Positions 13,639 to 32,250 of a stretch of 64,000 bases of DNA are shown piece after piece; positions within the stretch are counted from its first letter, which is position 1; each line of letters begins with the position of its first letter. The notes beneath the pieces were generated by a model, which had not been told where the DNA came from, ran no database searches, and was given only the letters and a program-made list of their open reading frames with translations. The position numbers and the translations under genes are program-made. This DNA is from Luteimonas salinisoli (GTDB lineage: Bacteria > Pseudomonadota > Gammaproteobacteria > Xanthomonadales > Xanthomonadaceae): the NCBI RefSeq assembly GCF_013425525.1, contig NZ_JACCKA010000073.1, positions 124,001 to 188,000 on the forward strand, read 5' to 3'.

Positions 13639-14538
13639 ATGATCGACAGACGCGACTTCCTGCGCGCCGCCGGCGGCGCGCTCGCGCTCACGGGACTGGG
13701 CAGCACGGCGGCGGCGATGGCCACGCCCGGATTTTCCGGGCTGGCGCCCGCCCTGGCCGCACTGGAGCGCGACAGCGGGGGCCGCCTGGGCGTGGCGGTC
13801 CTCGACAGCGGCAGCGGCCGGCATGCCGGCCTGCATGCGGACGAGCGCTTCCCGATGTGCAGCACGTTCAAGGTCCTGTTGGCCGCCGCCGTGCTGCAGC
13901 GCGTCGACCGCGGCTTCGAGCGGCTGGACCGCAGCGTGCCCATCGCCGAATCCGACCTGGTCTCGCACTCGCCGACCGCCGCGAAGCACGTCGGAGCGGA
14001 TGGCATGCCCGTGGCCGACCTGTGCCGCGCCACCATGATCCAGAGCGACAACGCCGCCGCCAACCTGCTGCTGCGGACCATCGGAGGTCCGGCGGGGCTG
14101 ACGCGCTTCGTGCGCGGGCTCGGCGATCCGCATACCCGGCTGGACCGCTGGGAAACCGCACTCAACAGCGCCACTCCCGGCGATCCGCGCGACACCACCA
14201 CGCCTGCGGCGATGGCGCGCAATCTGCAACGCCTGCTGCTGGGCAACGTCCTGCACGACGCATCGCGCGCCCTGCTGACCGGCTGGCTGGTCGACAACCG
14301 TACCGGCGACGCGCGCCTGCGCGCCGGGCTGCCGGAACGCTGGCGCGCGGGCGACAAGACCGGCACCAGCATCAGCGCCGAGGGGCGCGGCACCGCCAAC
14401 GACATCGCCATCGTCTGGCCGCCCGGGCGCCCGCCGCTGCTGGTCGCCTGCTATCTCACCGGGGCGGCGCCGGATGTCGACGCGATGAGTGCCGTGCATG
14501 CGGCAGTCGCCCGCGCGATGGCGGCGGCGATCGGCTGA
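13639..14538 (+). CDS. Class A serine beta-lactamase, L2-like
   Basis: A 299-residue periplasmic serine beta-lactamase. The N-terminus MIDRRDFLRAAGG is a twin-arginine (Tat) signal. Active-site motifs are S75-T-F-K78 in FPMCSTFK (Ambler S70xxK), S136-D137-N138 (SDN loop), E172 in RWETALN (omega-loop E166) and K240-T-G242 (KTG). The stretches DERFPMCSTFK, DLCRAT, SDNAAANLL, GDPRDTTTPAAMA and NDIA match the inducible L2 enzyme of Stenotrophomonas. A cysteine precedes the catalytic serine, but no partner cysteine follows KTG, so a carbapenemase-type disulfide is unlikely. It lies 107 bases after the B3 gene on the same strand and is probably part of the same AmpR-controlled unit. Confidence 0.94.
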   Translation: MIDRRDFLRAAGGALALTGLGSTAAAMATPGFSGLAPALAALERDSGGRLGVAVLDSGSGRHAGLHADERFPMCSTFKVLLAAAVLQRVDRGFERLDRSVPIAESDLVSHSPTAAKHVGADGMPVADLCRATMIQSDNAAANLLLRTIGGPAGLTRFVRGLGDPHTRLDRWETALNSATPGDPRDTTTPAAMARNLQRLLLGNVLHDASRALLTGWLVDNRTGDARLRAGLPERWRAGDKTGTSISAEGRGTANDIAIVWPPGRPPLLVACYLTGAAPDVDAMSAVHAAVARAMAAAIG

Positions 14539-15537: not shown

Positions 15538-15576
15538 GGGTCGTTCCCTGTGCGGATCGGTGCCTCATCTTCCCCC

Positions 15577-15644
15577 GTAGAGCGGAGCTTGCTCCGCTGC
15601 TCCCGGCTCCGGAGCCAAGAGCAGCCGAGCAAGCTCGGCTCTAC
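15577..15644. repeat. GTAG-type palindromic repeat, copy 3 (forms the amgK stop codon)
   Basis: Starts gtagagcggagcttgctccg and ends gccgagcaagctcggctctac, with cccggctccggagcc between. Its right end supplies the TAG stop of the leftward amgK-like gene (bases 15641-15643). Confidence 0.88.
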
Positions 15645-16657
15645 GTCTCGGCGCCGGGCCGGGGCAGGTGACGGTCCAGGATGGCGGCCAGCGGCGCGAG
15701 CTCCGGGTACTGCGGCAGCACCTGGCCCACATAGGCGACGAAGCGCGGCGCGTCGGCCAGGTACTTCGGCTTGCCGTCGCGGTAGTGCAGCCGCGCGAAC
15801 AGGCCGAGGATCTTCAAGTGGCGCTGCATGCCCGCGCAGTCGGCGTCGCGCCGGAACTCGTCGCGCGCCGGGACCGGCAGCCCGGCCGCGCTGGCGCGCG
15901 CATGGTAGCGGTCGAGCCAGGCGCCCACCGTTTGCGGCGGCCAGGAGTGAAAAGCGTCGCGGAACAGGCTGATCGGGTCGTAGGCGAGGGGCCCGCGCAC
16001 CGCGCCCTGGAAATCGATGACGGCCACGCCCCCGGGCACCGGCATCAGATTGCGCGGCATGAAGTCGCGATGCACCAGCACCTGCGGCTGGGCGAGCATG
16101 TTCGCGACCAGGAAATCGCAGACCCCCTGCAGGGCCTCCCGCTCCCGCGCGTCGAGCGACACGCCCAGGTGGCGGCCCAGGAACCATTCCGCGAACAGGT
16201 CGAGTTCGCGCTGCAGCATCGCCCGGTCGTACCGCGGCAGGTCCGGCGGGCACTCGATCGCCTGCAGTGCCAGCAGCTGGTCGAACGCCGCCTCGAACAG
16301 CGCGTCGGCACCTTCCCGTTCCATCGCCTGCAGGCAGGTGTCGGCGCCCAGATCCTCCAGCAGCAGGAAGCCGGCGTCGACGTCCTCCGCCAGGATCCCG
16401 GGCACGCGCACCCCGGCGCCGCGCAGCAGCGCATGGACCCGCAGCCACGGCCGCACGTCCTCCAGCGCCGGCGGCGAGTCCATGACGATACGGCTGCCGG
16501 CGGCCGTCGCGGCGCGCCAGTAGCTGCGAAAGCCGGCGTCGGCCGAGGCCGGTTCGAGCTCGAGCGCGTCGTCGCCGACGGCCTCGCGCGCCCAGCGCAG
16601 GCGGGCCGCCGCGCGGACGGCGGCAGGAGCGAGTGCCGCGATCTGGATGGCGTTCAT
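15641..16657 (-). CDS. amgK: AmgK-like amino-sugar 1-kinase (aminoglycoside phosphotransferase fold)
   Basis: A 338-residue cytosolic kinase. Motifs in order: FLLLEDLGADTCLQ near residue 100, LPRYDRAMLQRELDLFAEWF, the catalytic loop VHRDFMPRNLM (HRD...N) and the metal-binding VIDFQGA, then GPLAYDPISL. These match AmgK, which phosphorylates MurNAc and GlcNAc at carbon 1 in peptidoglycan recycling. The start at 16657 is preferred; an in-frame ATG at 16690 exists. Usually amgK pairs with murU, but no murU is present here. Instead it closes the nag operon, 60 bases after nagX. Its stop codon is formed by a GTAG repeat. Assignment to AmgK is good; the physiological substrate is open. Confidence 0.85.
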   Translation of the reverse strand: MNAIQIAALAPAAVRAAARLRWAREAVGDDALELEPASADAGFRSYWRAATAAGSRIVMDSPPALEDVRPWLRVHALLRGAGVRVPGILAEDVDAGFLLLEDLGADTCLQAMEREGADALFEAAFDQLLALQAIECPPDLPRYDRAMLQRELDLFAEWFLGRHLGVSLDAREREALQGVCDFLVANMLAQPQVLVHRDFMPRNLMPVPGGVAVIDFQGAVRGPLAYDPISLFRDAFHSWPPQTVGAWLDRYHARASAAGLPVPARDEFRRDADCAGMQRHLKILGLFARLHYRDGKPKYLADAPRFVAYVGQVLPQYPELAPLAAILDRHLPRPGAET

Positions 16658-16717: not shown

Positions 16718-17881
16718 TCAGATCCCGGGATGCCAACCGCGACGGTCCATCGCGTAGACGATCGCCCACCACAGCCCGACGAAGGCCACTGCGAAGGCCA
16801 GCGAAGGCAGATAGGGGCCGACATGCAGCGCCATCCAGCCGAACCCCACCCGGTAGAGCGGCTCCCACAGCCCGGCCGCGATCAGCAGGTAGACCATGGC
16901 CGCCGATCCGGCGTAGGCGACGATCGCATTGACCCCGAAACGACGCCCCAGCGGCGGCCAGCCGCGGCGATCCACCAGCACGTGCGCAGCCGCCAGCGCC
17001 AGCAGCGCCCAGCCTGCGGTCCAGAGCACGAAGGAAGGGGTCCACAGGTTCTTGTTCAGCGGCAGCGCCTGTGCCCAGAGCGCTCCCAGCGCCAACGCTG
17101 CCGCTCCCGCCACCCACAACCGCGCGATCCTCCCGCGCCGCAACCACGCCCCTGCACGCAGGCCGATCAGGGTCGTGGCGAGCGCGCCGAGGGTGGCCAG
17201 CAGCCCCTCGGGGTCGTGGCCCCGTCCGGTGACGGCATCGAAGCGGTACAGCAGCGGGCCGAACAGGTTGGCGTCGACGCGGCTGGCCGGGTTGGTCCAG
17301 GGCTCGACCCCGCCTCCGTACGCGAGCAGCCCGGCATAGCCGGCCAGCAACCCGGCCAGCAGCCACCACTGCGTCCGCGGCCCGGTCCACAGCGCCAGCG
17401 ACCCCGCCGCCAGGAAGCAGACGCCGATCCGCTGCAGGACTCCCCACAACCGCAGTGGCGACCCGTCCAGGGCCCACCACGCGAGCAGATGCAGCAGCAG
17501 ACCCAGGGCGACGATGCGCAGCGCGCGCCCCAGCACCGCGCGCTGCAGCAGGGCGCGATCGGTGCCGGTTTCGGCCCGCGCCGCCACCCCCAGCGCGATC
17601 GACACGCCCACCACGAACAGGAACAGCGGGAACACCAGGTCGGCGGGCGTGCAGCCATGCCACGCTGCGTGCAGCAGCGGCCGGTAGACGTGCCCCCAGT
17701 CGCCCGGATTGTTCACCAGCAGCATCGCCGCCACGGTCAGCCCCCGCAACGCATCGACCGAAGCCAAGCGCGACGGCGACCGGGCCGCGGCCACCCCGGG
17801 GCTCGCGGGCGGGCGCCGCGCACGCTCCACGGATACGCCCTGCGGCAGCGGCGCAGGTCCCCGAACGCTATCCCGCGTCAC
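16718..17881 (-). CDS. nagX: NagX-type membrane acyltransferase-like protein (DUF5009/HGSNAT family)
   Basis: A 387-residue membrane protein with about ten hydrophobic helices. It opens with the family signature SVDALRGLTVAAMLLVNNPG, then FPLFLFVVGVSIALG and GVLQRIGVCFL. It belongs to the bacterial relatives of heparan-alpha-glucosaminide N-acetyltransferase, called NagX in proteobacterial GlcNAc clusters. Proposed roles are N-acetylation of glucosamine or transport assistance, both unproven. The GTG at 17881 is the likely start: it overlaps the end of nagA by 14 bases. An internal GTG about 45 bases further in is possible. It sits between nagA and the amgK-like gene in the leftward operon. 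Confidence 0.82.
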   Translation of the reverse strand: MTRDSVRGPAPLPQGVSVERARRPPASPGVAAARSPSRLASVDALRGLTVAAMLLVNNPGDWGHVYRPLLHAAWHGCTPADLVFPLFLFVVGVSIALGVAARAETGTDRALLQRAVLGRALRIVALGLLLHLLAWWALDGSPLRLWGVLQRIGVCFLAAGSLALWTGPRTQWWLLAGLLAGYAGLLAYGGGVEPWTNPASRVDANLFGPLLYRFDAVTGRGHDPEGLLATLGALATTLIGLRAGAWLRRGRIARLWVAGAAALALGALWAQALPLNKNLWTPSFVLWTAGWALLALAAAHVLVDRRGWPPLGRRFGVNAIVAYAGSAAMVYLLIAAGLWEPLYRVGFGWMALHVGPYLPSLAFAVAFVGLWWAIVYAMDRRGWHPGI

Positions 17882-19007
17882 CGCCGACCCAGGTCCGGCG
17901 CACCTGCAGTTCGGCGTCGAGCAGCACCAGGTCGGCGCGGTAGCCGGGCGCGATGCGTCCGTAGCGGTCGTCGACACCGAGGCATTCGGCGGGATACGTC
18001 GACGCCATGCGCGCCGCCTCCTCCAGCGACAGCCCGAGCAGGCGCACGCAGTTGCGCACCGCCGTGGCCATGTCCAGCGCCGAGCCGGCCAGCACCCCCG
18101 CCGCGTTGCGGCAGACGCCGTCCAACGCGGTGATGGTCTCGCCGTACAGGACGTAGCTCGGGTCGCCGGAGCCCACCGGCGGCATCGCATCGGTGACCAG
18201 GAACACCTTGCCGCGCGGCTTGGCCGCGAGCGCCACGCGCAGACTCGCCGGATGGGCGTGCACGCCGTCGACGATGATGCCGCACCAGCTGTCGTCGTCC
18301 TCCAGCGCGGCGCCGACCGCGCCGGGCTCGCGGCCCTGCAGCGGCGTCATCGCGTTGAACAGATGGGTGAAGCCGCGCACGCCTGCCGCCAGCCCCGCGC
18401 GCAGCTCGTCGTAGCTGCCGGCCGTGTGCCCCGCGAACACCACCACGCCAGCCGCGGAGAGCGCGCGGATGGTGGCGGCCGGAACGCGCTCCGGGGCGAG
18501 CGTGAGCAGCGTCGGGCCGTTGTCCAGCGACGCGGCCAGCGCGATCTCCCCGGCATCGGGCACGCGGAACCTGGCTGCGTCGTGGGTGCCCTTGCGGGCG
18601 GGCGCGAGGTAGGGCCCCTCGAGATGGATGCCGAGCACGCCGGGCACGCCCTGCGCGATCGCCTCGCGCACCGCCGCGATCGCCGCCCGCATCGCCTCGG
18701 GCGTATCGCTGATCAGGGTCGGCAGCAGCGCGGTGGTGCCGAAGCGGCGGTGCGCGCGGGCGATCGCGCGCACGCCCTCGACCGTCGGCTGGTTGTTGAA
18801 CAGCACCCCGCCGCCGCCGTTGACCTGCAGATCGATGAAACCCGGCAGCAGCGTCGCCCCGCCCAGGTCGACGATGTCCGCGTCCGGCAGCCGCGGGGCG
18901 TCCGCCGCGACCAGGGCCTCGATGCGCTCGCCGTCCAGCAGCACCGCGACATCGTCGCGAAAACCCCCGTCCACCAGCACCCGGCCATTGCGCAGCGCTA
19001 CCGCCAT
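17868..19007 (-). CDS. nagA: N-acetylglucosamine-6-phosphate deacetylase
   Basis: A 379-residue cytosolic amidohydrolase converting GlcNAc-6-phosphate to glucosamine-6-phosphate and acetate. Visible signatures are LLPGFIDLQVNGGGG, the metal-binding Glu in GIHLEGPYL, His in FAGHTAGSY and THLFNAM, HAHPASL, and the catalytic Asp in LVTDAMPPVG. Length is normal for NagA. The ATG at 19007 overlaps the TGA of the upstream nagB-II gene (TGATG), so translation is coupled. It belongs to the nagP-nagR-nagB-nagA-nagX run, giving a clear pathway context. Confidence 0.95.
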   Translation of the reverse strand: MAVALRNGRVLVDGGFRDDVAVLLDGERIEALVAADAPRLPDADIVDLGGATLLPGFIDLQVNGGGGVLFNNQPTVEGVRAIARAHRRFGTTALLPTLISDTPEAMRAAIAAVREAIAQGVPGVLGIHLEGPYLAPARKGTHDAARFRVPDAGEIALAASLDNGPTLLTLAPERVPAATIRALSAAGVVVFAGHTAGSYDELRAGLAAGVRGFTHLFNAMTPLQGREPGAVGAALEDDDSWCGIIVDGVHAHPASLRVALAAKPRGKVFLVTDAMPPVGSGDPSYVLYGETITALDGVCRNAAGVLAGSALDMATAVRNCVRLLGLSLEEAARMASTYPAECLGVDDRYGRIAPGYRADLVLLDAELQVRRTWVGGDAG

Positions 19008-20062
19008 CACACCGTCTCCGTGACCTTGTTGAGGTGCGGCGGCACATCGGGGGCGAAGCCGCGCGCGCGCGACAGCGCCTCGACCGCGCGGTAGAAGCTC
19101 TGCGCGGTCAGCAGGGGCGCGGCGGCGGCATGCGGCGCCTCTGCGACCGGCAGATTGCCGTGCCGCGAAGCGGTCCACATCGCGGCGCCACGGGCGCGGA
19201 ACTCGTGCGCCATCGCCAGGGTGCCGCTCTCGGTCTCGTCGGGCTGCGCGAGCACCAGCACCGGGAAGCCCGGCCCCACCAGCGCCATCGGGCCGTGCTT
19301 GACCTCGGCCGAGCTGTACGCTTCGGCGTGCAGGCCGCAGGTCTCCTTGAACTTCAGTGCCGCCTCCTGGGCCACCCCGAGTCCCAGCCCGCGCCCGAGC
19401 ACGAACAGGTTGGCGGTCGCGGCCAGGCCATCGACCAGCGCCGTCCAGTCCTGGGCCCACGCGGCGCGCAGCGCATCGGGCAGCGCCGCCAGCGCTTCGC
19501 CCATCCGGGCGTCGTCCTTCCAGCAGGCGGCCAGCTGCAGCAGCGCGGCCAGCGAAGCGATGTAGCTCTTGGTGGCCGCGACGCTGCGCTCGGGCCCCGC
19601 GTGCAGCGGAATCACCGTGTCGGCGAGGGCGGCGAGCGGGGAATCCTCCACGTTGACCAGGGCCACCACCCGGGCGCCCGACGCGCGCGCGGCCTCGGCG
19701 TTGCGCAGCAGGTCGGGGCTGCGCCCGGACTGCGAGATCACCAGGTAGAGCGCGCCGCGCAGGTGCTGGCTGGCGGCATACACCGAGCCCACCGAGGGCG
19801 AGGCCGAGGCCGTCGCCCGCCCCAACTGGGTCTCGAACAGGTACTTGCCGTAGGTGGCGGCGTGATCGGAACTGCCGCGGGCGCAGGTGACCACGAACGG
19901 CGGCGGGTCCCGGCGCAGCGCGCGCGCCAGCTCCGCGACCGCCTCGACGTTGCGCGCGAACTGCCGGGCGACCACGTCGGCCGCCTGCGCGGCCTCGTCG
20001 AACATCCAGCTCGGGCCGGCCGGCGAGGCAGCGGGATCGACGAGATCGGCGGGGGCTTGCAT
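19007..20062 (-). CDS. nagB: SIS-domain glucosamine-6-phosphate deaminase, NagB-II type
   Basis: A 351-residue protein with two SIS (sugar isomerase) domains, resembling the isomerase half of GlmS and the NagB-II deaminases. The first SIS has FVVTCARGSSDHAATYGKY and LVISQSGRSPDLL; the second has NLFVLGRGLGLGVAQEAALK and SSAEVKHGPMALV. The C-terminus is a GlmS-like PPHLNKVTETV. The expected reaction is glucosamine-6-phosphate to fructose-6-phosphate plus ammonia. Its ATG lies one base after the nagR stop, and its own stop overlaps nagA. It replaces the classical hexameric NagB, as is usual in Xanthomonadales and Shewanella. Confidence 0.92.
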   Translation of the reverse strand: MQAPADLVDPAASPAGPSWMFDEAAQAADVVARQFARNVEAVAELARALRRDPPPFVVTCARGSSDHAATYGKYLFETQLGRATASASPSVGSVYAASQHLRGALYLVISQSGRSPDLLRNAEAARASGARVVALVNVEDSPLAALADTVIPLHAGPERSVAATKSYIASLAALLQLAACWKDDARMGEALAALPDALRAAWAQDWTALVDGLAATANLFVLGRGLGLGVAQEAALKFKETCGLHAEAYSSAEVKHGPMALVGPGFPVLVLAQPDETESGTLAMAHEFRARGAAMWTASRHGNLPVAEAPHAAAAPLLTAQSFYRAVEALSRARGFAPDVPPHLNKVTETV

Positions 20063-20063
20063 G

Positions 20064-21122
20064 TCAGGCGTCCTGGGCGGGGGGCGGGCGCGGGCGCATC
20101 GGCGCGGTCGAGCCGCGCACCACCAGTTGCGGCACGAAGCCGTGGTTGTGCACCGCGGCGGGCGCCTCCGGTGCATCGTGGCGCAACTGCGCGATCAGCA
20201 GCCGCGCGGCGTGGCGGGCGATGTCCTCGGTGGCCTGCTTGGCGGTGGTCAGCGGCGGCCAGGACTGCTTGGAGAACGGGCTGTCCTCGAAGCCGGCGAT
20301 CGACAGGTCGTACGGCACGTTCATCCCGACCGACTTGGCCGCGGCCAGGACCCCGGCGGCGATCTCGTCGTTGGAACCGAAGATCGCCGTCGGCGGCTCG
20401 CGCAGCGCCAGCAGCCGGCGCGCGCCGCGGAAGCCGTCGTCGAAGGTGTAGTCGCCGGGCACCACCAGGTGTTTGTCGAGGGTGATCCCGTAGTCCTTCA
20501 GCGCCTTCTCGTAGCCGAGATAGCGCTCGGAGCTGGAGCGATGCTCCTGTCCGCCCCAGAGAAAGCCGATCCGCTGGTGGCCGAGCTGGACCAGGTGCTC
20601 GGTGACTTCGTAGGCGGCGTCGCGGTCGTCGACGAACACGCAAGGGTAGCCGTCTTCCGGGTCCTCGGCGGCGGCGATGATGCGCACCAGCTTCACGCCG
20701 CGCGAGGCCAGCGCCTCCACCAGCTCCATCCGCTCGGACATCGGCGGGGCGAGCACCAGCCCGGCCAGGCGCGAGCGCCGCATCCAGTCGCACAGCTCGT
20801 CCACCAGCAGCGGCGAGCTGGCGTCGCAGGGATGGATCTGCAGGTCGAAGCCGGTCTCGCGGCAAGCGGAGAGGACGCCGTTCTGCACGCTGATGATGTA
20901 GTAGGGATTGGGGTTGTCGTAGGCCACCCCGATCACGAACGCGGTGGCGCTGCGCAGGTTGCGCGCCGACGGATCCGGCTCGTAGTCGAGCTCGGCGACC
21001 GCGTGCAGGACCCGCGCCCGGGTGGCCTGCATGACCGACGGCTCGTTGTTGATGACGCGCGAGACCGTCTTCAGCGAGACCTTGGCGCGCTCGGCGACGT
21101 CGCGGATCGTTGGCTTTCGCAT
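20064..21122 (-). CDS. nagR: LacI-family transcriptional regulator of GlcNAc genes (NagR-like)
   Basis: A 352-residue repressor. The N-terminal LacI helix-turn-helix is at residues 4-25 (TIRDVAERAK, SLKTVSRVIN), with the hinge helix near 50-60 (PSARNLRS). The sugar-binding periplasmic-binding-protein-like core shows FVIGVAYDNPNPYY, GHQRIGFLWGG and FGSNDEIAAGVL. It sits inside the nag operon between nagP (26 bases upstream) and nagB-II, so it probably regulates itself and the divergent arm. The candidate operator is the palindrome at 22758-22773. The ligand (GlcNAc-6-phosphate in characterised NagR proteins) is inferred from context. Confidence 0.9.
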   Translation of the reverse strand: MRKPTIRDVAERAKVSLKTVSRVINNEPSVMQATRARVLHAVAELDYEPDPSARNLRSATAFVIGVAYDNPNPYYIISVQNGVLSACRETGFDLQIHPCDASSPLLVDELCDWMRRSRLAGLVLAPPMSERMELVEALASRGVKLVRIIAAAEDPEDGYPCVFVDDRDAAYEVTEHLVQLGHQRIGFLWGGQEHRSSSERYLGYEKALKDYGITLDKHLVVPGDYTFDDGFRGARRLLALREPPTAIFGSNDEIAAGVLAAAKSVGMNVPYDLSIAGFEDSPFSKQSWPPLTTAKQATEDIARHAARLLIAQLRHDAPEAPAAVHNHGFVPQLVVRGSTAPMRPRPPPAQDA

Positions 21123-21148: not shown

Positions 21149-22459
21149 TCATGATGCGCCCGTCGGCCGTGCGCCGGCCAGGCCGACGCGATGGCCACGC
21201 CGGGCGTAGAACAGGATGTACAGATAACAGGGCAGCATCAGCAGCAGGAACACAAGCTGGAAATCGAAGTGCTGCTTGAAGACCGCGAACGCCTGCGGAA
21301 TGATCGCGCCGCCGGCGATGCCCATCACCAGCAGCGCGGAACCGGTCTCGGTGGAGCGTCCCAGGCCGCGGATCGCCATCGGGAAGATCGCCGGCCACAT
21401 CATCGCGTTGGCGAAGCCGAGCGCGGCGACGAATCCGACGGACAGGTAGCCGCCGGTCAGGTAGGCGGCGGTGGTGAATGCGATGCCCATCAGCGCCGAG
21501 ACGCTGAGGTACCGCTCCTGCGAAACGAAGCGCGGGATCAGCACCATCCCCGCCAGATAGCCCAGCAGCATCGCGAACAGGGTGAACGAGGTGAAGAACT
21601 TGGTGTGGTCCAGCGGCAACGCCAGCGCCTGGCCGTAGGTGCCGATGGCGTCTCCCGCCATGACCTCCACGCCGACGTAGGTGAACAGGCACAGCACGCC
21701 CAGCCACAGGTGCGGGAAGCGGAAGATCCCGCGTGCCGCACCCGGCGCGCCGGCCCCAGGGGCGCCGGTGTCCGCATTCGCCTCGACCGGTCGCAGCTCC
21801 GGCAGCGGCGAGAACAGCACCCCGACGGCCACCAGCATCAACAGTCCGGCCATCGCCAGGTACGGCGTGTGGATCTTGGCGGCGAAGGCGTCGAGCAGCC
21901 GGGCCCGCACGGCGGGATCGGCGGCGGCGACCTCGCCGGCGAGATCGCCGATGCCGTGCAGCACCAGCGTGCCCAGCACCAAGGGGGCGAGGATGCCCGC
22001 CACCTTGTTGCAGATCCCCATTAGCGCGATCCGCTGCGCCGCGCTTTCGATCGGACCGAGGATGCTGACGTAGGGATTGACCGCGGTCTGCAGCAGCGCG
22101 AGGCCGCCGCCGATCACGAACAGTCCCGACAGCGCCCCCGGATACCAGCGCTGGGTCGAGAACTCGCCGAACAGCATCGCCCCCGCCGCCATCACCGCCA
22201 GGCTCAAGGCCAGGCCCTTCTTCATGCCGGTTCGTTTCAATACCCAGGCCGCGGGCAGCGCGAGGAAGAAATAGGACAGGTAGAACACCATGAGCACGAG
22301 GAAGGCGTTCACCTCGTCCAGTTCGAAGGCCAGCTGCACGAACGTGATCAGCGGACCGTTGATCCAGGTGAAGAAACCGATGATGAAGAACAGCAGCCCC
22401 ATGATCGCGATGGCCAAGGGGAAGGGCGAGCGGGCGCTCGCGGGCACGGCAGCGGACAT
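21149..22459 (-). CDS. nagP: N-acetylglucosamine permease NagP (MFS, FucP-like)
   Basis: A 436-residue inner-membrane sugar:proton symporter of the FucP/NagP branch, about 12 helices. It opens with SPFPLAIAIMGLLFFIIGFF directly followed by TWINGPLI, the NagP hallmark, then QTAVNPYVSILGP and the C-terminal FAVFKQHFDFQ. Start choice: ATG 22459 has an aggag Shine-Dalgarno 8 bases before it and begins where family members begin. An in-frame ATG at 22549 would add 30 residues but overlaps an operator-like half-site and has a poor ribosome site. It is the first gene of the leftward nag operon. Confidence 0.9.
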   Translation of the reverse strand: MSAAVPASARSPFPLAIAIMGLLFFIIGFFTWINGPLITFVQLAFELDEVNAFLVLMVFYLSYFFLALPAAWVLKRTGMKKGLALSLAVMAAGAMLFGEFSTQRWYPGALSGLFVIGGGLALLQTAVNPYVSILGPIESAAQRIALMGICNKVAGILAPLVLGTLVLHGIGDLAGEVAAADPAVRARLLDAFAAKIHTPYLAMAGLLMLVAVGVLFSPLPELRPVEANADTGAPGAGAPGAARGIFRFPHLWLGVLCLFTYVGVEVMAGDAIGTYGQALALPLDHTKFFTSFTLFAMLLGYLAGMVLIPRFVSQERYLSVSALMGIAFTTAAYLTGGYLSVGFVAALGFANAMMWPAIFPMAIRGLGRSTETGSALLVMGIAGGAIIPQAFAVFKQHFDFQLVFLLLMLPCYLYILFYARRGHRVGLAGARPTGAS

Positions 22460-22533: not shown

Positions 22534-22549
22534 AGTCTAACGTTGTCAT
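22534..22549. promoter_or_regulatory. Operator-like half-site upstream of nagP
   Basis: agtctaacgttgtcat has a right half (tgtcat around a central acgt) like the perfect palindrome at 22758-22773, but a degenerate left half. It lies 75 bases before the chosen nagP start and could be a weak second NagR site. Confidence 0.3.
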
Positions 22550-22882
22550 AAATCCACCGGATTTGCCATGCGATCGCTCGATTGTGCGGGGGCGATCGGT
22601 GTTGTCCTGCAGCATTTGTCCTGCTGTCGTCGCCGATGTCCTGCCTCAGACAGCGCTAATTGTCGACATATATGTGATCAATGGCTGGCTTACAGCCCAT
22701 TATTCGATGAATACAGTGTCAATCGAGCCAAACCTGCAAGGAAACCTTCAAACCATGTTGACATCGTTGTCAAACTATTTTCAAACTCGGTCACGACTTT
22801 CGCGGCACCCCCTGCCGCAAGCACGCACATCCGCACCGAGGACCATGTGGCAGCTACCGCAAGCCCGCTACGGATCGACGCC
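22550..22882. other. AT-rich divergent control region between nagP and nagK
   Basis: About 330 bases without a gene, much richer in A/T than the surroundings, especially 22660-22800 (for example attgtcgacatatatg). It must hold both promoters of the divergent nag arms. It contains the perfect palindrome at 22758-22773 and a self-complementary tgtcgaca at 22661-22668. I see no convincing coding frame. Confidence 0.6.
22758..22773. promoter_or_regulatory. Candidate NagR operator (perfect 16-bp palindrome)
   Basis: ttgacatcgttgtcaa is a perfect inverted repeat TTGACA-N4-TGTCAA, the size and symmetry expected for a LacI-family operator. It lies 110 bases before nagK and about 300 before nagP, in the region a divergently acting NagR would occupy. 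TTGACA also equals a -35 hexamer, so the site could overlap a promoter, but no good -10 follows at 16-18 bases. Confidence 0.6.
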
Positions 22883-23878
22883 ATGACCAGGAGCGCGAAG
22901 CCGTTCATCGCCGCCGACGTCGGCGGCACCCACGTGCGCATCGGGCTGGTGCGGCGCAGCGACGACCCGTCGCACCCGGTCTCGGTCCTGCAGTACCGCA
23001 AGTACGTCTGCGCCGATTGGCCCGGGCTGGCGGACATCCTCGAGGATTTCCTCGGCCGGCTCGGCGACGTCGGGGTCGAGGAGGGCGCGATCGCAAGCGC
23101 CGGCTACGCGCTCGAGGACGGCTCGGTGATCACCGTCAACCTGCCCTGGGGCATCTCGCTCAACGCGATCCGCGAGCGGCTCGGCTTCCGCGAGTTCCGG
23201 CTGGTCAACGACTTCGAGGCCGTGGCCCATGCCGCCGCCTACGTCGATGCCAGCGAGGTGCTGCAGCTGGCCGGACCGGAGACCGCGCCCGCCGGCCCCA
23301 CGCTGGTCGTCGGCCCCGGCACCGGCCTGGGCGCGGCGGTGTGGATCCCGACCGCGAAGGGACCGGTGGTCCTGGCCACCGAAGCCGGCCAGGCGGCGCT
23401 GACCACCGGCAACGACCTGGAGGCGGCGCTGCTGCGCGAACTGCTGCGCGAGCGCGACCACGTGCCCAACGAGCACGCGCTCTCCGGCCCCGGCCTGATG
23501 AACCTCTACGCGGCCCTGGCCAAGCTGCGCGGCGCGACCCAGGCCTACGCCTCGCCCGGCGAGATCACCGCCGCAGCCCTCGACGGCAGCGATCCGCTGG
23601 CGCGCGAGAGCCTGGAGGTGTTCTGCGGCCTGCTGGGAAGCACGGTCGGCGACATGGCGCTGCTGTACGGCGTCCACGGGGGGATCTACCTAGCGGGCGG
23701 GATCCTGCCGCAGATCCGCGAATTCCTGCTGCAGAGCAGCTTCGTGGCGCGGTTCCTCAACAAGGGGCCGATGCGCGAGGCGCTCGAGCGCATCCCGGTG
23801 AAGCTGGTCGAGCACGGCCAGCTGGGCGTGATCGGCGCCGCCACCTGGTACCTCGGCACCGGCGCGGGCGGGCGCTGA
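22883..23878 (+). CDS. Glucokinase-family kinase, probable GlcNAc kinase
   Basis: A 331-residue cytosolic sugar kinase of the proteobacterial Glk (hexokinase/ASKHA) family. ATP and sugar motifs are FIAADVGGTHVRIGLV (phosphate-1), VNDFEAVAHAAAY (catalytic Asp), VVGPGTGLGAA (phosphate-2) and GGIYLAGGILPQ (adenosine region). The ATG at 22883 begins just before the phosphate-binding loop, as usual. As the first gene of the rightward nag arm, before the receptor and hexosaminidase genes, it most likely makes GlcNAc-6-phosphate for NagA. Glucose could also be a substrate. Confidence 0.88.
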   Translation: MTRSAKPFIAADVGGTHVRIGLVRRSDDPSHPVSVLQYRKYVCADWPGLADILEDFLGRLGDVGVEEGAIASAGYALEDGSVITVNLPWGISLNAIRERLGFREFRLVNDFEAVAHAAAYVDASEVLQLAGPETAPAGPTLVVGPGTGLGAAVWIPTAKGPVVLATEAGQAALTTGNDLEAALLRELLRERDHVPNEHALSGPGLMNLYAALAKLRGATQAYASPGEITAAALDGSDPLARESLEVFCGLLGSTVGDMALLYGVHGGIYLAGGILPQIREFLLQSSFVARFLNKGPMREALERIPVKLVEHGQLGVIGAATWYLGTGAGGR

Positions 23879-23999: not shown

Positions 24000-26804
24000 A
24001 TGATGAATCACCGTAAATCCGTATTGTCCGCGGCGATCCTGGCCTGCCTGGGTGTGAGCGCGCAGGTGCAGGCACAACAGGCTCCCGCGCAGCAGCAGGA
24101 GGAGGCCGCGGAACTCGACCGCGTGGTGGTGACCGGCATCCGCGGCAGCCTGCAGCAGGCCCTGGACACCAAGCGCAACGCCGACGCCTTCGTCGACGCG
24201 ATTACCGCCGAGGACGTGGGCAAGTTCCCCTCCACCAACGTCGCCGAGGCGATGACGGTCATCCCGGGTGTGACCATCGACCGCCTGTTCGGCCAGGGCG
24301 AGAAGGTGAGCATCCTCGGCACCGACCCGGCGCTCAACCGCACGCTGCTCAATGGCCAGACGGTGGCCTCGGCCGACTGGTTCATCGTCGACCAGCCCGG
24401 CCGCACCTTCAACTACGCGCTGCTGGCGCCCGAGATCGTCGGCAAGGTGGAGGTCTACAAGTCACCCGAGGCGCGCATCGACGAGGGCTCGATCGGCGGC
24501 ACCGTCATCGTCAGCACGCGCCGGCCGCTCGACCTGGACGCCAATACCTTCGCCGGCTCGATCGGCTATCTCTACAACGACCGCTCCGAAGAGGCGGACC
24601 CGCAGGGCTCGCTGATGTACAGCTGGAAGAATCCGGCCAGCACCTTCGGCGTCGCCGTCTCGTTCCAGACCTCCACCGAGAACCTGCGCCGCGACGGCGT
24701 CGAATCCTACGGTTCGGTCTCGGCGCGCGACTATCGCGACGGCCAGGGCGGCGGCGGTTCGGTCAACAACCTGCCCCCCGACTGGTCGCAGCCGCCGAAC
24801 CCGGACGGCTCGCAGCCGACCCTGCCCCCCAGCTGCACCGGCACCTGCGCCGAGACCCTGGAGAACAACCTCGACGCGCGCGGCCCCAACTCGCTCAGCG
24901 CCTCGTTCTTCGAGCAGGAGCGCAAGCGCAACAGCTTCACCCTGTCGTTGCAGGCCCGACCGGTGGAGCGGCTCGACCTGGAATTCAACGCCCTGCGCGT
25001 CGATGCCAGCTACGACAACCTGAACCAGTCCATGTTCGCCTTCATGGGCAACCCCTGGAACGGGCTGATGAAGATGACCGACGTCACCATCGAGGACGGC
25101 GTCATCACCCGCGGCACGTTCGCCAACGCGCTTTCGGTGTTCGACGTGCAGAACCGGCTGGCGGAGATCGATACCGAGTCGTACGACTTCAAGGCCGGCT
25201 GGGACGACGAGCGCTGGTTCGTCTCCGCCCACGTCGGCACCACCAAGGCCACCGGCGGCACCAGCCAGCAGGTGTTCGGCGAGTTCCTCAACTGGGCCGA
25301 CTACAGCTACGACATCAGCGGCGCCCCGGGACGCCCGGGCAGCGTCGACTTCTCCGGCGCGAATCCCTTCAGCGATCCGTCGGCGTTCCGCATCGACGGC
25401 GGCTGGGGCAGCGATCCGGACGATCCTGCAGCCTGGAACCCGGGCTGGGGCGGCAACGTGGTCTTCAAGCCCACCAGCGACCGCGAGCGCTACGGCCAGG
25501 TGGATCTCGGCATCCGCCTGGATTCGCCGGTGTACCTGCTGCGCTTCGGCGCCAAGCGCCGCGAGCACGAGACCGAGCAGCTGATGGGCGGCGTATCGCT
25601 GGCCTCGGTGGCCGGCTACGGCGATGCGCCCGCCTCGCTGTTCGACCCCAAGCGGGTGCCGGGCAACTACCTCGACGGATTCGACGGCGTCAGCGACGAG
25701 ATGAAGAACCGGTTCTACATCGACGGCTGGGCGCTGGCCGACTACATCCTCGGCGGCGAGTGGCTGGCGCCATGGCAGTCGATGCCGGTGCCGAGCACGT
25801 TCAACGACCCGTCGTTCGCGGCCAATACCTTCAAGATCACCGAGGACGTGGACGCGGCCTATGTCCAGGCCGACTTCAGCTTCGACCGCCTGCGCGGCAA
25901 CGTCGGCCTGCGCTACGTGCGGACCGAATCCGAAAGCGCGGGCTGGGCGTGCATCGCCACCGACGTGCCGCCGCCGTGCCCCGCGGACGGCTACGCGCCG
26001 GTGAGCGTGAACAAGCAGTACGACAACCTGCTGCCCAACCTCAACCTGGTCTACGAGGCCACCGACGACCTGCTGCTGCGCTTCTCCGCCGCCAGCGTCA
26101 TCGCCCGTCCCAACTACGCCGACATGTCGAGCTACCTGTGGCTGGGGGACCAGACCCTCACCGGCGGCGGCGGAAACCCGGATCTCGAACCCTACGAGGC
26201 CAACAACTTCGACGCCTCGGCCGAATGGTATTTCGCGGAGAACTCGATCCTGTCCGGCACCGTGTACTACAAGGACATCGACAACTACATCCTCACCACC
26301 ACGCGCCCGGAAACCCACTTCAACCAGGCCCAGGGCGAAGAGACGGTCTACCAGGTGTCGCGGCCGGACAACGCCGGCACCGCCAGGATCAAGGGCGTGG
26401 CCGTGGCGTTTCAGCAGAGCTTCGACAACGGCTTCGGCGTACTGGCCAACTACACCTACTCCGACGGCGAGTCGAGCACCGGGGAGCCGATGCCGTACAA
26501 CTCGGAGAACCAGGTCAACCTCAGCCCGTTCTTCGAGGCCGGCGCCTGGAGCGCGCGCGTCACCTACTCCTGGCGCTCGAAGTACTTCACCAACGTCGAC
26601 CGTGGCGACGAGCTGTGGGTGCGTCCGTACGAATCGGTGGACGCCTCGCTGGGCTACCGCTTCAACGACAACTTCAGCCTGACCCTCAACGCGATGAACC
26701 TGCTCGACGAGGCCTACCACAGCTACGCCACCGACGAACGGCTGACCCGCGGCGTGTACCGCAGCGGCCGGCGCTACACCGCGATGCTGCGGGTGAACTT
26801 CTGA
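24000..26804 (+). CDS. TonB-dependent receptor of the GlcNAc cluster
   Basis: A 934-residue outer membrane receptor. The signal peptide is residues 1-26 (ending QVQAQ), with the TonB-box region LDRVVVTGIRGSLQQALD. The plug is typical of the Xanthomonas/Caulobacter carbohydrate-type receptors (DAFVDAITAEDVGKFPSTNV, IPGVTIDR, EVYKSPEARIDEGSIGGTV). The 22-strand barrel ends RSGRRYTAMLRVNF. Two short loops carry cysteine pairs (CTGTC and CIATD...PPCP) that may form external disulfides. A gaggagaga site precedes the ATG. Standing between the GlcNAc kinase and hexosaminidase genes, it probably imports chitin- or peptidoglycan-derived amino-sugar oligomers; the substrate is inferred. Confidence 0.93.
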   Translation: MMNHRKSVLSAAILACLGVSAQVQAQQAPAQQQEEAAELDRVVVTGIRGSLQQALDTKRNADAFVDAITAEDVGKFPSTNVAEAMTVIPGVTIDRLFGQGEKVSILGTDPALNRTLLNGQTVASADWFIVDQPGRTFNYALLAPEIVGKVEVYKSPEARIDEGSIGGTVIVSTRRPLDLDANTFAGSIGYLYNDRSEEADPQGSLMYSWKNPASTFGVAVSFQTSTENLRRDGVESYGSVSARDYRDGQGGGGSVNNLPPDWSQPPNPDGSQPTLPPSCTGTCAETLENNLDARGPNSLSASFFEQERKRNSFTLSLQARPVERLDLEFNALRVDASYDNLNQSMFAFMGNPWNGLMKMTDVTIEDGVITRGTFANALSVFDVQNRLAEIDTESYDFKAGWDDERWFVSAHVGTTKATGGTSQQVFGEFLNWADYSYDISGAPGRPGSVDFSGANPFSDPSAFRIDGGWGSDPDDPAAWNPGWGGNVVFKPTSDRERYGQVDLGIRLDSPVYLLRFGAKRREHETEQLMGGVSLASVAGYGDAPASLFDPKRVPGNYLDGFDGVSDEMKNRFYIDGWALADYILGGEWLAPWQSMPVPSTFNDPSFAANTFKITEDVDAAYVQADFSFDRLRGNVGLRYVRTESESAGWACIATDVPPPCPADGYAPVSVNKQYDNLLPNLNLVYEATDDLLLRFSAASVIARPNYADMSSYLWLGDQTLTGGGGNPDLEPYEANNFDASAEWYFAENSILSGTVYYKDIDNYILTTTRPETHFNQAQGEETVYQVSRPDNAGTARIKGVAVAFQQSFDNGFGVLANYTYSDGESSTGEPMPYNSENQVNLSPFFEAGAWSARVTYSWRSKYFTNVDRGDELWVRPYESVDASLGYRFNDNFSLTLNAMNLLDEAYHSYATDERLTRGVYRSGRRYTAMLRVNF

Positions 26805-26899: not shown

Positions 26900-29275
26900 A
26901 TGACGCGCGCTTGCAGCCCCCCCTTCCGCACGCTTCTCCTCGGCCTGGCCGCCCTGCTGGCGGCCGCCTGCAGCCCGCTCGATGCGACGCCCGCGGCGGC
27001 AGAGGAAGCCGTCGCGACCGCGTCCGGCCCGGCCCCGGCCCTGGTTCCCGCGCCGGTATCGCTGCGCGCCGGAGACGGCCGGTTCGCCCTGTCCGCCGCC
27101 ACGCCGGTGCACGCCGAGGGCGCCGGCGCGGCCGCGGCCGCGCGCCACTTCGCGACGTACGCGGCGCGCAGCCACGGGCTTTCGCTGGAGGTCGACGGCA
27201 GCGGGAAAGGCGGCACCGGCGGCATCCGCTTCGACATCGACGCCGCCGCGGACTTCGGCGGGCCCGAGGCCTATGCGATCGAGGTCGACCCCGAGGCGGT
27301 GCGCGTCAGCGCCGCCGATCCGCGCGGGCTGTTCTACGGCGCGGTGACGCTGTGGCAGCTGCTCGAGGGCGATGCGGACGGCGCCGGCGGCGTCGCGCTC
27401 CCGGCGGTGCGGATCGAGGATGCGCCGCGCTTCGGCTGGCGCGGCTTCATGCTGGACTCGGCGCGGCATTTCCAGAGCGTCGACGAGATCAAGCGGCTGC
27501 TCGACGCGATGGCCCGCCACAAGCTCAACGTCTTCCACTGGCACCTGACCGACGACCAGGGCTGGCGCATCGAGATCCGCCGCTATCCGCGCCTGACCGA
27601 GGTCGGCGGCTGCCGCATCCCCGCCGGGGACGGCGGCGTCGATCCGCGCACGGGCGCGCCGGTGCCGTACTGCGGCCACTACACCCAGGCGCAGATCCGC
27701 GACATCGTCGCCTACGCCGCCGAACGGCACATCACCGTGGTCCCGGAGATCGACGTGCCGGGGCATGCGCAGGCGGCGGTGGCGGCCTACCCGGAACTCG
27801 GGGTGACCGGCGAGCAGATCGAGGTGCTGAACGAATGGGGCGTGAACCAGACCCTGTTCAACGTCGAGGAAAGCACCTTCGAATTCCTGGAGAACGTGCT
27901 GGCCGAGGTGGTGGAGCTGTTTCCCGGGACCTACATCCATCTCGGCGGCGACGAGGCGGTCAAGGACCAGTGGCAGGCATCGGAACGGGTGCAGGCGCGG
28001 ATGCGCGAACTCGGCCTTGCCGACGAGGCGGCGCTGCAGAGCCATTTCATCAAGCGCATGGAACGCTTCCTGGTGGCCCGCGGCCGGCGCCTGATCGGCT
28101 GGGACGAGATCCTGGAAGGCGGCCTGCCGCCGGAGGCCACGGTGATGTCCTGGCGCGGCATCGAGGGCGGCATCGAGGCGGCCCGCCAGGGCCACGACGT
28201 GGTGATGACGCCATCGTCCGAGCTCTACCTGGACTACCTGCAGACCGACTCGCCGAACGAGCCGCCGGGGCGCCCGGCGATGGTGACGCTGGAGCAGGTC
28301 TACCGTTTCGAGCCCGTGCCGGAGGCGCTCGAGACGGACCAGCAGGCGCACGTGCTGGGCGTGCAGGCGAACCTCTGGACCGAGCATGCGCGCACGTTCG
28401 ATCGCGTGCAGCACCACGTCTTCCCGCGCCTGGCCGCCCTCGCCGAGACCGCCTGGACGCCAGCGGCGCGGCGCGACTATGCGGACTTCCTGGAGCGGCT
28501 GCCCGCGCAGATGGGACGCTACCGCGCGATGGGCATCGCGGCCGCGACCACGCCGTTCGAAGTGCTGGCCGACGTGGAAGAAGACCGCGCCGGCGGCGCC
28601 GTCGCCATCGCGCTGCGCAATCCGCTCGGCTACCCGGTGCGCTACACCCTCGACGGCAGCGAGCCCGGCCCCGACGCCGTCCTCTACCGCGCGCCGCTGG
28701 AGCTGGCGCTGCCCGCCAGCGTCCGGGCGGCGGCGTTCCACGACGGCGCGGCGCTGGCGCCGCCCGTTGCCCATGCCTTCGATGCCGCCTCGCTGCTGGT
28801 CCGTACCGACGAGCAGCTCGAGACCTGCCCCGATACCGGCCGGCTGCTGCTGCGGCTCGAGGACGACGGGCCGCTGCACGGCGAGCGCGCCATCTTCGAC
28901 GTGACGATCTTCTATCCGTGCTGGCTGTGGCCGCAGGCGGGCCTGGGCGGCATCGCCGCGCTGGAGATCCGCGCCGGCCGCATGCCGTACTACTTCCAGC
29001 TCGCCCACGACGAGCCGAACCGCAAGTTCCTGCCGGCGCAGACCGCGCACGGCGAACTGGTGGTGCAGTCCGGCGGCTGCGAGGGGCCGCTGCTGGCCAC
29101 CCTGCCCCTGCCGGCGCGGCCCGATGCCGACGGCTTCGTCACCCTGCGCACGCCTCCGCTCGCCGCCGCCGCCGACAGGACCGACCTCTGCTTCACCTTC
29201 ACCGGCGACACCCGGCCGACGATGTGGGTGCTCGACCAGGCGCGCCTGATTCCGGACCAACCCTCGCCCCCGTAG
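26900..29275 (+). CDS. Beta-N-acetylhexosaminidase, GH20, lipoprotein
   Basis: A 791-residue exo-hydrolase releasing terminal GlcNAc/GalNAc. The lipoprotein signal has its lipobox Cys near residue 25 (LLAAACS). The GH20b N-terminal domain covers about 40-170. The GH20 barrel starts at RGFMLDSARHF, with FHWHLTDDQGWR, VVPEIDVPGHAQA and the catalytic Asp-Glu pair near 350-351 in HLGGDEAVKDQW. WDEILEGG and NLWTE follow. A C-terminal chitobiase-type domain begins near 560 (YPVRYTLDGSEPGPDAVLY). The product probably sits on the outer membrane or in the periplasm. It is the last gene of the rightward nag arm. Its TAG stop is the first bases of a GTAG repeat. Confidence 0.94.
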   Translation: MTRACSPPFRTLLLGLAALLAAACSPLDATPAAAEEAVATASGPAPALVPAPVSLRAGDGRFALSAATPVHAEGAGAAAAARHFATYAARSHGLSLEVDGSGKGGTGGIRFDIDAAADFGGPEAYAIEVDPEAVRVSAADPRGLFYGAVTLWQLLEGDADGAGGVALPAVRIEDAPRFGWRGFMLDSARHFQSVDEIKRLLDAMARHKLNVFHWHLTDDQGWRIEIRRYPRLTEVGGCRIPAGDGGVDPRTGAPVPYCGHYTQAQIRDIVAYAAERHITVVPEIDVPGHAQAAVAAYPELGVTGEQIEVLNEWGVNQTLFNVEESTFEFLENVLAEVVELFPGTYIHLGGDEAVKDQWQASERVQARMRELGLADEAALQSHFIKRMERFLVARGRRLIGWDEILEGGLPPEATVMSWRGIEGGIEAARQGHDVVMTPSSELYLDYLQTDSPNEPPGRPAMVTLEQVYRFEPVPEALETDQQAHVLGVQANLWTEHARTFDRVQHHVFPRLAALAETAWTPAARRDYADFLERLPAQMGRYRAMGIAAATTPFEVLADVEEDRAGGAVAIALRNPLGYPVRYTLDGSEPGPDAVLYRAPLELALPASVRAAAFHDGAALAPPVAHAFDAASLLVRTDEQLETCPDTGRLLLRLEDDGPLHGERAIFDVTIFYPCWLWPQAGLGGIAALEIRAGRMPYYFQLAHDEPNRKFLPAQTAHGELVVQSGGCEGPLLATLPLPARPDADGFVTLRTPPLAAAADRTDLCFTFTGDTRPTMWVLDQARLIPDQPSPP

Positions 29276-29335
29276 AGCGGAGCTTGCTCCGCTGCTTCCA
29301 GCCCGTAGCCCGTAGCCGAGCAAGCGCGGCTCTAC
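29272..29335. repeat. GTAG-type palindromic repeat, copy 4 (forms two stop codons)
   Basis: Starts gtagagcggagcttgctccg and ends in a slightly decayed gccgagcaagcgcggctctac. The left end gives the TAG of the hexosaminidase gene (29273-29275), the right end the TAG of the convergent vanZ-like gene (29332-29334). Confidence 0.88.
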
Positions 29336-29766
29336 GGAGCGGCGTCGCGGCGGCCGGGAGGCGCGAGGCGCCGGTCGAGCGCCAGCAGCGCGTCCCGCCA
29401 GGGCGTCAGCCGCGTCGCCAGCCCGGCGATCACGCCCAGCGTGTTGGCGAGCGCATCGGCGCGCTCGGCCTGGCGCAGTTCGGTCAGCGCGCCCTGCGCG
29501 TACTCCAGTCCGATGCCCATCAGCACCAGGCCGAGGCCGGCGCCGAGCAGCGCGGGCCAGCGCGCGTGGAGCTGCACCGCGCCGGCGGCCAGCACGAAGT
29601 AGGCGGCCAGGTGGCCGAGCTTGTCGCCGCCGTCGACCGGCGGCATCGGCGGCGGCGGCGCCAGCGAGGCGACCACCACCGCGGCCACCGCCAGGCACCA
29701 GAGTCCGCTCCACAGCAGCGGACGGCGGAACGGCTTGAGCGAGCGGCCGGGGCCCGGGCGGTTCAC
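29332..29766 (-). CDS. VanZ-like family membrane protein
   Basis: A 144-residue protein with three to four hydrophobic helices. It carries the VanZ-like signature DKLGHLAAYFVLAAGAVQ followed by GIGLEYAQGALTELR and the Asp/Asn pair in ERADALANTLGVIAG. Function is unknown for most members; VanZ itself gives low-level teicoplanin resistance. Its ATG overlaps the end of the upstream methyltransferase gene by 4 bases, so it is the second gene of that operon. The stop codon is part of a GTAG repeat. Confidence 0.85.
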   Translation of the reverse strand: MNRPGPGRSLKPFRRPLLWSGLWCLAVAAVVVASLAPPPPMPPVDGGDKLGHLAAYFVLAAGAVQLHARWPALLGAGLGLVLMGIGLEYAQGALTELRQAERADALANTLGVIAGLATRLTPWRDALLALDRRLAPPGRRDAAP

Positions 29767-32032: not shown

Positions 32033-32063
32033 TATGGGCGGGCGACGCGGGCACCGGGGCCCC

Positions 32064-32140
32064 GTAGAGCCGAGCTTGCTCGGCTGCTTCACCCGGTTGC
32101 GGGCTCCGGGCCGGGCGCAGCGGAGCAAGCTCCGCTCTAC
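32064..32140. repeat. GTAG-type palindromic repeat, copy 5
   Basis: Starts gtagagccgagcttgctcgg, ends gcggagcaagctccgctctac; the spacer reads cttcacccggttgcgggctc. Together with its left flank (from 32036) it is tandemly repeated at 32152-32250 with a 116-base period. Confidence 0.88.
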
Positions 32141-32179
32141 GAATGAGGGCCGGGCCGGCGACGCGGGCGCCGGGGCCCC

Positions 32180-32250
32180 GTAGAGCCGAGCTTGCTCGGC
32201 CGCTTCACCCGGTTGCGGGCTCCGAGCCGGGCGCAGCGGAGCAAGCGTAC
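32180..32250. repeat. GTAG-type palindromic repeat, copy 6 (decayed right end)
   Basis: Tandem copy of the 32064 element with the same spacer, but the last hairpin is shortened to gcggagcaagcgtac. It ends 7 bases from the stop of the convergent membrane-protein gene. Confidence 0.85.

Follow-up and report, generated by a model that had tools for sequence, protein, structure and literature searches.

The LacI-family repressor NagR of Shewanella is reported to bind and repress nagP, nagK and a receptor gene (PMC3223726). NagI of S. maltophilia represses nagP, its response to GlcNAc-6-phosphate having been deduced from mutants (PMC13055268), and an account of two Xanthomonas species assigns nagAB and nagP to NagQ, and the kinase and TonB receptor genes to NagR (PMC5343134). 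In E. coli, NagC forms a repression loop, and both operons are derepressed when its phasing is altered (PMC2946308). For the Herbaspirillum PhaR, named PhbF, a footprint-supported motif is described, TG[N]TGC[N]3GCAA (PMC3206438), and ppa appears as a motif-based PhaR target in Sinorhizobium meliloti (PMC12542648). Here we compare with these systems a nag locus lying in a 64-kb stretch of Luteimonas DNA, hereafter the window. We propose that the LacI-family repressor NagR controls this locus through a two-operator switch in the divergent nag spacer, a reading that we consider quite probable. Sequence and comparison support it in that two sites, O1 and O2, are conserved, that O1 overlaps a -35/-10 pair resembling a promoter and that the spacing of the sites is restricted; we infer the presence of NagR on both sites, the inducer (from S. 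maltophilia NagI) and the position of the nagP transcription start.

The palindrome O1 and the genes beside it

The spacer divides nagK, a TonB receptor gene and a GH20 gene on the plus strand from nagP-nagR-nagB-II-nagA on the minus strand. The gene nagK (22883..23878) encodes a glucokinase-family kinase (NCBIfam NF009073 above cut-off; PF02685) and is followed by genes for a TonB-dependent receptor (24000..26804; TIGR01782 above cut-off) and a GH20 beta-hexosaminidase (26900..29275; PF00728), the sole GH20 match in the assembly. On the other side lie nagP for an MFS transporter (21149..22459; PF07690, with NF046060 below cut-off), whose start we place at a conserved ATGTCC after GGAG, then nagR (20064..21122), nagB-II for glucosamine-6-phosphate deaminase (19007..20062; NF046059 below cut-off) and nagA for GlcNAc-6-phosphate deacetylase (17868..19010; TIGR00221 above cut-off), the last two with provisional starts. 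The first-pass annotation took the nagR product for a LacI-family protein, and its PF00356 and Peripla_BP_3 domains bear this out, so a regulator of that family is indeed encoded with the nag genes. NCBIfam offers no above-cut-off name for it, which counts against the two-operator switch; its matches there fall below cut-off, and the name NagR therefore rests on context and orthology. Elsewhere in the window, an HGSNAT_cat (PF07786) frame just past nagA (16718-18190, minus strand) is possibly nagX in the same operon, a beta-lactamase family gene (PF13354) occupies 13639-14538 on the plus strand, and REP-like interspersed inverted repeats (CGTAGAGCGGAGCTTGCTCCGCTGCT ... AGCGGAGCAAGCTCCGCTCTACG) stand at gene ends (15572-15645, 29267-29353 and 32036-32246).

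An exact palindrome had been claimed at 22758-22773, and the letters read there are TTGACATCGTTGTCAA, a perfect 16-bp palindrome to which no strand is assigned. This site, O1, is very probably the main operator of NagR, whose binding is predicted. A scan of the window with TTGACANNNNTGTCAA returned O1 as the sole match at 0-2 mismatches; at up to 3 mismatches there were 7 matches against 4.21 expected, a number reached in 10 of 100 shuffles and hence within chance, so that the exact site alone stands out. The 4.52-Mb genome holds a single exact copy of the 16-bp palindrome, and the pattern loosened to 2 mismatches carries no signal there (32 places versus 45 for the reversed control). Its core, TGACANCGNTGTCA, has three exact places in the genome; tolerating up to 2 mismatches gained little (95 versus 68 in the control), and inspection of the gene maps gave no plausible target for the one-mismatch cores C6, C14 and C17. 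The fourth one-mismatch core, C85:85510, is some 600 bp away from a reading frame for a TonB receptor.

Conservation upstream of orthologous nag genes had been named as a check on the operator reading, and the comparison supports that reading. A search with NagR in named genomes gave 201 relatives, the best 80 of which were taken for locus comparison; all are titled Luteimonas, Pseudoxanthomonas, Stenotrophomonas, Xanthomonas or uncultured Xanthomonadaceae except one titled Bacillus subtilis, and the closest NagR among these best 80 is that of Luteimonas endophytica (97% identical). In 77 of these 80 loci the core, with its central CG, is found no more than 2.6 kb upstream of nagR. The three without it (L022, L026 and L086), all titled Xanthomonas, contain nagP-nagR-nagB-nagA, with no nagK found within their 21-kb stretches, which fits the division between NagQ and NagR described in that genus (PMC5343134); nagK, O1 and O2 are all present in L078, also titled Xanthomonas. 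Since the same account has NagR controlling nagK and TonB receptor genes, the O1 operator itself is of a known kind. The locus titled Bacillus subtilis (L071) is Stenotrophomonas-like, its NagR being 82% identical, and the assembly behind it is probably mislabelled or contaminated. A second O1-type site is present in ten loci. In seven of these (L054, L056, L072, L083, L085, L087 and L088) a second nagK-like gene follows it after 92-116 bp, and in L077 after 270 bp, with no nagK found alongside in L051 and L052; this suggests duplicated nagK promoter modules. Several Stenotrophomonas spacers, such as those of L021 and L027, share a further conserved palindrome near O1, TAAACGTTTA.

A feature beyond the first-pass annotation is the overlap of O1 with a promoter. 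Its left half, TTGACA (22758..22763, plus strand), is the predicted nagK -35 box, and CAAACT (22782..22787, plus strand) the predicted -10. Read towards nagK, the outer T of TTGACA, a base outside the search pattern, is invariant, both among the non-redundant sequences (49 of 49) and across the distinct spacers of the pair collection given below (111 of 111), while its mirror base matches the palindrome in 41 of those 111. A promoter element occupying half of the palindrome would explain its asymmetry in relatives. CANACTC follows 18 bases past TTGACA, its A, A and T each found in 47 of the 49. The simple reading is that TTGACA and CANACT form the nagK -35/-10 pair; NagR bound there would then keep RNA polymerase off the nagK promoter. 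A nagK-like start lies 92-143 bp from the centre of 83 of 87 O1-type sites and 270 bp from one, and none was found near the other three. The idea that the palindrome is simply a strong -35 box, mirrored by chance, is hardly credible. In its favour, TTGACA has the perfect -35 sequence and is followed by a -10-like element, but the right half, TGTCA, falls in no promoter element and yet is kept together with the left in the 77 of 80 loci.

The genome has seven LacI-domain matches, and the palindrome might be bound by another of these proteins, such as the GH3-linked paralogue at C88:17061, whose sites share TGACA..CG..TGTCA. A like site lies upstream of the paralogue in 25 of 25 loci with a recognised helix (26 were read, and L219, whose helix was not recognised, was left out). 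However, the base beside the central CG is G or C at all 31 sites found at paralogue loci, whereas in O1 it is A or T in 111 of 111 distinct spacers, which makes such binding very improbable; in the LacI family the base at this position is reported to depend mainly on hinge residue 55 (PMC2978694). The other two exact cores of the genome, one before a GH3/lacI pair and one before a TonB receptor gene, are G-centred like the paralogue sites and so are more likely the paralogue's than NagR's. A genome scan for the motif before chitinase, hexosaminidase or TonB receptor genes, as had been suggested, thus yielded little: a TonB receptor gene was found, though with that G-centred core, whereas a search of the assembly for GH18 chitinases gave no match and the single GH20 gene is the window's own. 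No further NagR site was found before other chitin or GlcNAc genes of the genome, and the NagR regulon here may be the single nag locus, which the family definition allows. The two G-centred palindromes, TGACAGCGTTGTCA, at C88:16824 and C88:55805 of G000 (L111 8825 and L112 7806), precede the divergent GH3/lacI pair and the TonB receptor gene 39 kb away, and likely constitute a second LacI regulon with a sister motif.

The second site O2 and its distance from O1

The first-pass annotation also mentioned a weaker half-match at 22534-22549 before nagP. It is present as described, reading AGTCTAACGTTGTCAT on the plus strand, and comparison indicates what that annotation missed, namely that it is a conserved second site. 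The half inside it, TGACAACGTT (22539..22548, minus strand), is termed O2; it is predicted to be a second site for NagR, within the nagP leader and 224 letters from O1. Of the 77 relatives' loci with O1, 75 have it exactly and in a single orientation; the two exceptions, L074 and L077, have O1 and lack an exact O2, which counts against the two-operator switch. In three nagP-side alignments, of Luteimonas, Stenotrophomonas and Pseudoxanthomonas type (13, 13 and 12 of the 77 loci, plus the window), TGACAACGTT is invariant. Among 66 non-redundant sequences, drawn from pairs that include both identical copies L187 and L054, an AT-rich, -10-like stretch precedes O2 and RTTCCC follows it. Two observations weigh against the switch, namely that the downstream half of O2 in the window is poor (AGAC versus palindrome TGTCA) and that the nagP -35 varies between groups, none being clear in the window.

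In the Luteimonas- and Stenotrophomonas-type groups a GGAG-ATGTCC start for nagP lies beyond O2, and in the window this is ATG 22459; this conserved start downstream places O2 in the nagP leader, probably at the transcription start of nagP. The alternative start, ATG 22549, was rejected: Stenotrophomonas-type sequences read TGTGACAACG there, and the GGAG-ATGTCC start follows. The likely start codon of nagP thus moves from 22549 to 22459, and with the former falls the idea that O2 arose by chance from a start codon and Thr-Thr-Leu codons. It is quite unlikely that O1 is the only NagR operator and O2 a conserved nagP promoter or 5' mRNA element unused by NagR. The degenerate downstream half is itself conserved as RTTCCC, and the half sits at the probable transcript start, both of which would suit such an element; however, O2 copies exactly ten bases of the half-plus-centre of O1, keeps a restricted spacing to it, and persists in seven loci with O1 and O2 where no nagP match was found and nagR follows directly (L039, L041, L049, L053, L057, L064 and L066). 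In five of the seven, nagR starts 71-77 bp after O2, and O1 and O2 are 234-237 bp apart.

The spaced pair was also sought without using NagR in 395 genomes of the family. This search gave 107 pairs in 105 genomes, 75 at 210-240 bp, 28 at 241-271 bp (three of them G-centred) and 4 at 179-209 bp, and its reversed-pattern control gave 0 among the matches listed. Forty of the 107 were fetched, picked for informative genera and not at random, and 38 of these lie between nagK and nagP and/or nagR, the exceptions being L179 and L190. A set of 112 pairs was obtained after removal of L169 and L189 (duplicates of the L049 and L087 records) and of L179 and L190 (no nagP or nagR); L187 is identical to L054, which leaves 111 distinct spacers, both copies being kept in the parsimony, shuffle and X-distance sets (112). 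With the three G-centred pairs of the search excluded, the 104 A/T-centred spacings between O1 and O2 are 181 bp (1), 208 bp (3), 212-214 bp (2), 221-227 bp (10), 231-239 bp (63) and 242-248 bp (25), and none of the 104 falls at 209-211, 215-220, 228-230 or 240-241 bp. The classes are about one helical turn apart, with 208 and 181 bp as exceptions, which suggests a repression loop like that of NagC, the stepped distances hinting that the intervening DNA is held in a fixed geometry.

We can thus elaborate the two-operator switch, without replacing it, by letting NagR act jointly on O1 and O2 with the spacer as a phased repression loop, possibly aided by a protein on a third element, X (see below), an idea that we hold tentatively and a little below the balance of probability. 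Apart from the precedent of E. coli NagC (PMC2946308), it draws on the discrete spacing classes with empty gaps, on a similar clustering of the X-O2 and O1-X distances and on linear parsimony. On a NagR-NagB-NagA tree of 112 tips, the changes of at least 4 bp outside the three deepest edges are -10, -27, -10, -5, +9, +10, +9, +9, -11, -21, -9 and -10, and 10 of these 12 differ from a multiple of 10.5 by no more than 1.75 bp (p about 5e-4 at one third each, with the bin picked post hoc). However, the proportion falls to 7 of 12 and 7 of 13 under two other cost functions, and an indel simulation on a tree of 76 tips gives p of about 0.56, 0.25 and 0.01 across three models. The score moreover has no peak at 10.5 (0.55 versus 0.59 at 11.25) and is no higher there than at 11-12, the main class of 231-239 bp covers most of one turn, and the 208-bp spacing is out of phase. 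NagR also aligns over its full length to the dimeric PurR, while its alignment to LacI ends at residue 304, from which a LacI-type tetramer would not be expected. Helical phasing of O1 and O2 is accordingly suggested at most.

A PhaR-type dyad between the two sites

Element X (22600..22614, minus strand) is a dyad, TGCTGC-AGG-ACAACA, one mismatch from TGYTGCNNNGCARCA, a PhaR-type motif. At up to one mismatch, the TGYTGCNNNGCARCA dyad occurs between O1 and O2 in 92 of 111 distinct spacers, whereas shuffling the letters of the 112 gives an expectation of 0.15. Fifty-nine spacers have it 54-98 bp before O2, exact in 27 of them; in 38 it is near O1, at exactly 35 bp in 37, and the named ones among these are Stenotrophomonas-type loci. 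The X-O2 distances cluster at 65-67, 76-79 and 86-88 bp and the O1-X distances at 127-130, 147-149 and 157-163 bp, but these clusters reflect the same events as the O1-O2 spacing and so are no separate proof of phasing. In the window X has ACA in place of the GCA triplet of a PhaR site with intact TGC and GCA, whereas the dyad is exact near O2 in 27 of 111 other spacers; PhaR control is consequently less likely here than in those relatives.

The genome encodes a PhaR (TIGR01848 above cut-off) and has the motif at its PHB genes, with 12 exact dyads against 0 for the reversed control. Ten of the 12 were read, of which one lies just before phaR, one before a likely phasin start (PF09361), one 53 bp before ppa and five others inside predicted reading frames. 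The exact dyads before the phasin gene, ppa and phaR (L226, L228 and L231; C19, C32 and C54 of the own genome) outline a Luteimonas PhaR regulon. Within the family, the dyad stands upstream of phaR at up to one mismatch in 14 of 30 phaR loci, our own included, and is exact in one. Clp/CRP-like sites occur in 3 of 112 regions versus 0.55 expected. Among the literature matches listed, most of which concerned other meanings of 'Phar', none linked PhaR to N-acetylglucosamine or GlcNAc, and this does not prove that no such link has been published. The most far-reaching proposal would be a single nucleoprotein switch in Xanthomonadaceae, with NagR on O1 and O2 in helical register and PhaR on the dyad, in which the loop is opened by GlcNAc-6-phosphate and tuned by PHB granules titrating PhaR; it would wire GlcNAc uptake to PHB storage, and we regard it as doubtful.

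Proposed mechanism and comparison with known switches

In the proposed switch, NagR on O1 would cover the predicted -35 box for nagK, the TonB receptor gene and the hexosaminidase gene, since this box coincides with the left half of O1, and NagR on the half-perfect O2, at the predicted start of the nagP-nagR-nagB-nagA transcript, would block the nagP side. By analogy, GlcNAc-6-phosphate, the product of NagK, is the likely inducer and would release NagR from both sites, although Shewanella NagR is reported to be released by 20 mM GlcNAc in vitro (PMC3223726), which counts against regarding GlcNAc-6-phosphate as settled.

The closest relatives of this system are the NagR regulon of Shewanella and Xanthomonas (PMC3223726, PMC5343134) and NagI of S. 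maltophilia (PMC13055268), in which a LacI-family repressor likewise stands beside nagP, nagB and nagA, targets nagP, nagK and TonB receptor genes and is released by GlcNAc or GlcNAc-6-phosphate. The passages compared from these accounts contain no operator sequences; the present locus differs in that O1 and O2 are paired between divergent genes. To the known NagR operator it appears to add a second one, an overlap with a promoter, stepped distances between the two sites and a PhaR-like dyad. The dyad family fits TG[N]TGC[N]3GCAA as described for PhaR/PhbF sites of PHB genes (PMC3206438; PMC12542648), but unlike those sites X sits inside a nag control region. If O2, the stepped spacing and the dyad hold, about a hundred genomes would form a natural series in which operator distance changes by roughly whole DNA turns, and the uptake of chitin sugar would gain a possible tie to carbon storage. 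With the NagC loop between nagE and nagB of E. coli (PMC2946308) the locus shares two operators between divergent promoters, here O1 and O2 flanking those of the nag genes, repression of GlcNAc genes, induction by GlcNAc-6-phosphate (predicted here) and a spacing that may matter. NagC, however, is of the ROK family and NagR of the LacI family, so that the switch would work like the NagC loop without being a member of that class; if true, a LacI-family protein has reached an arrangement known from the unrelated NagC.
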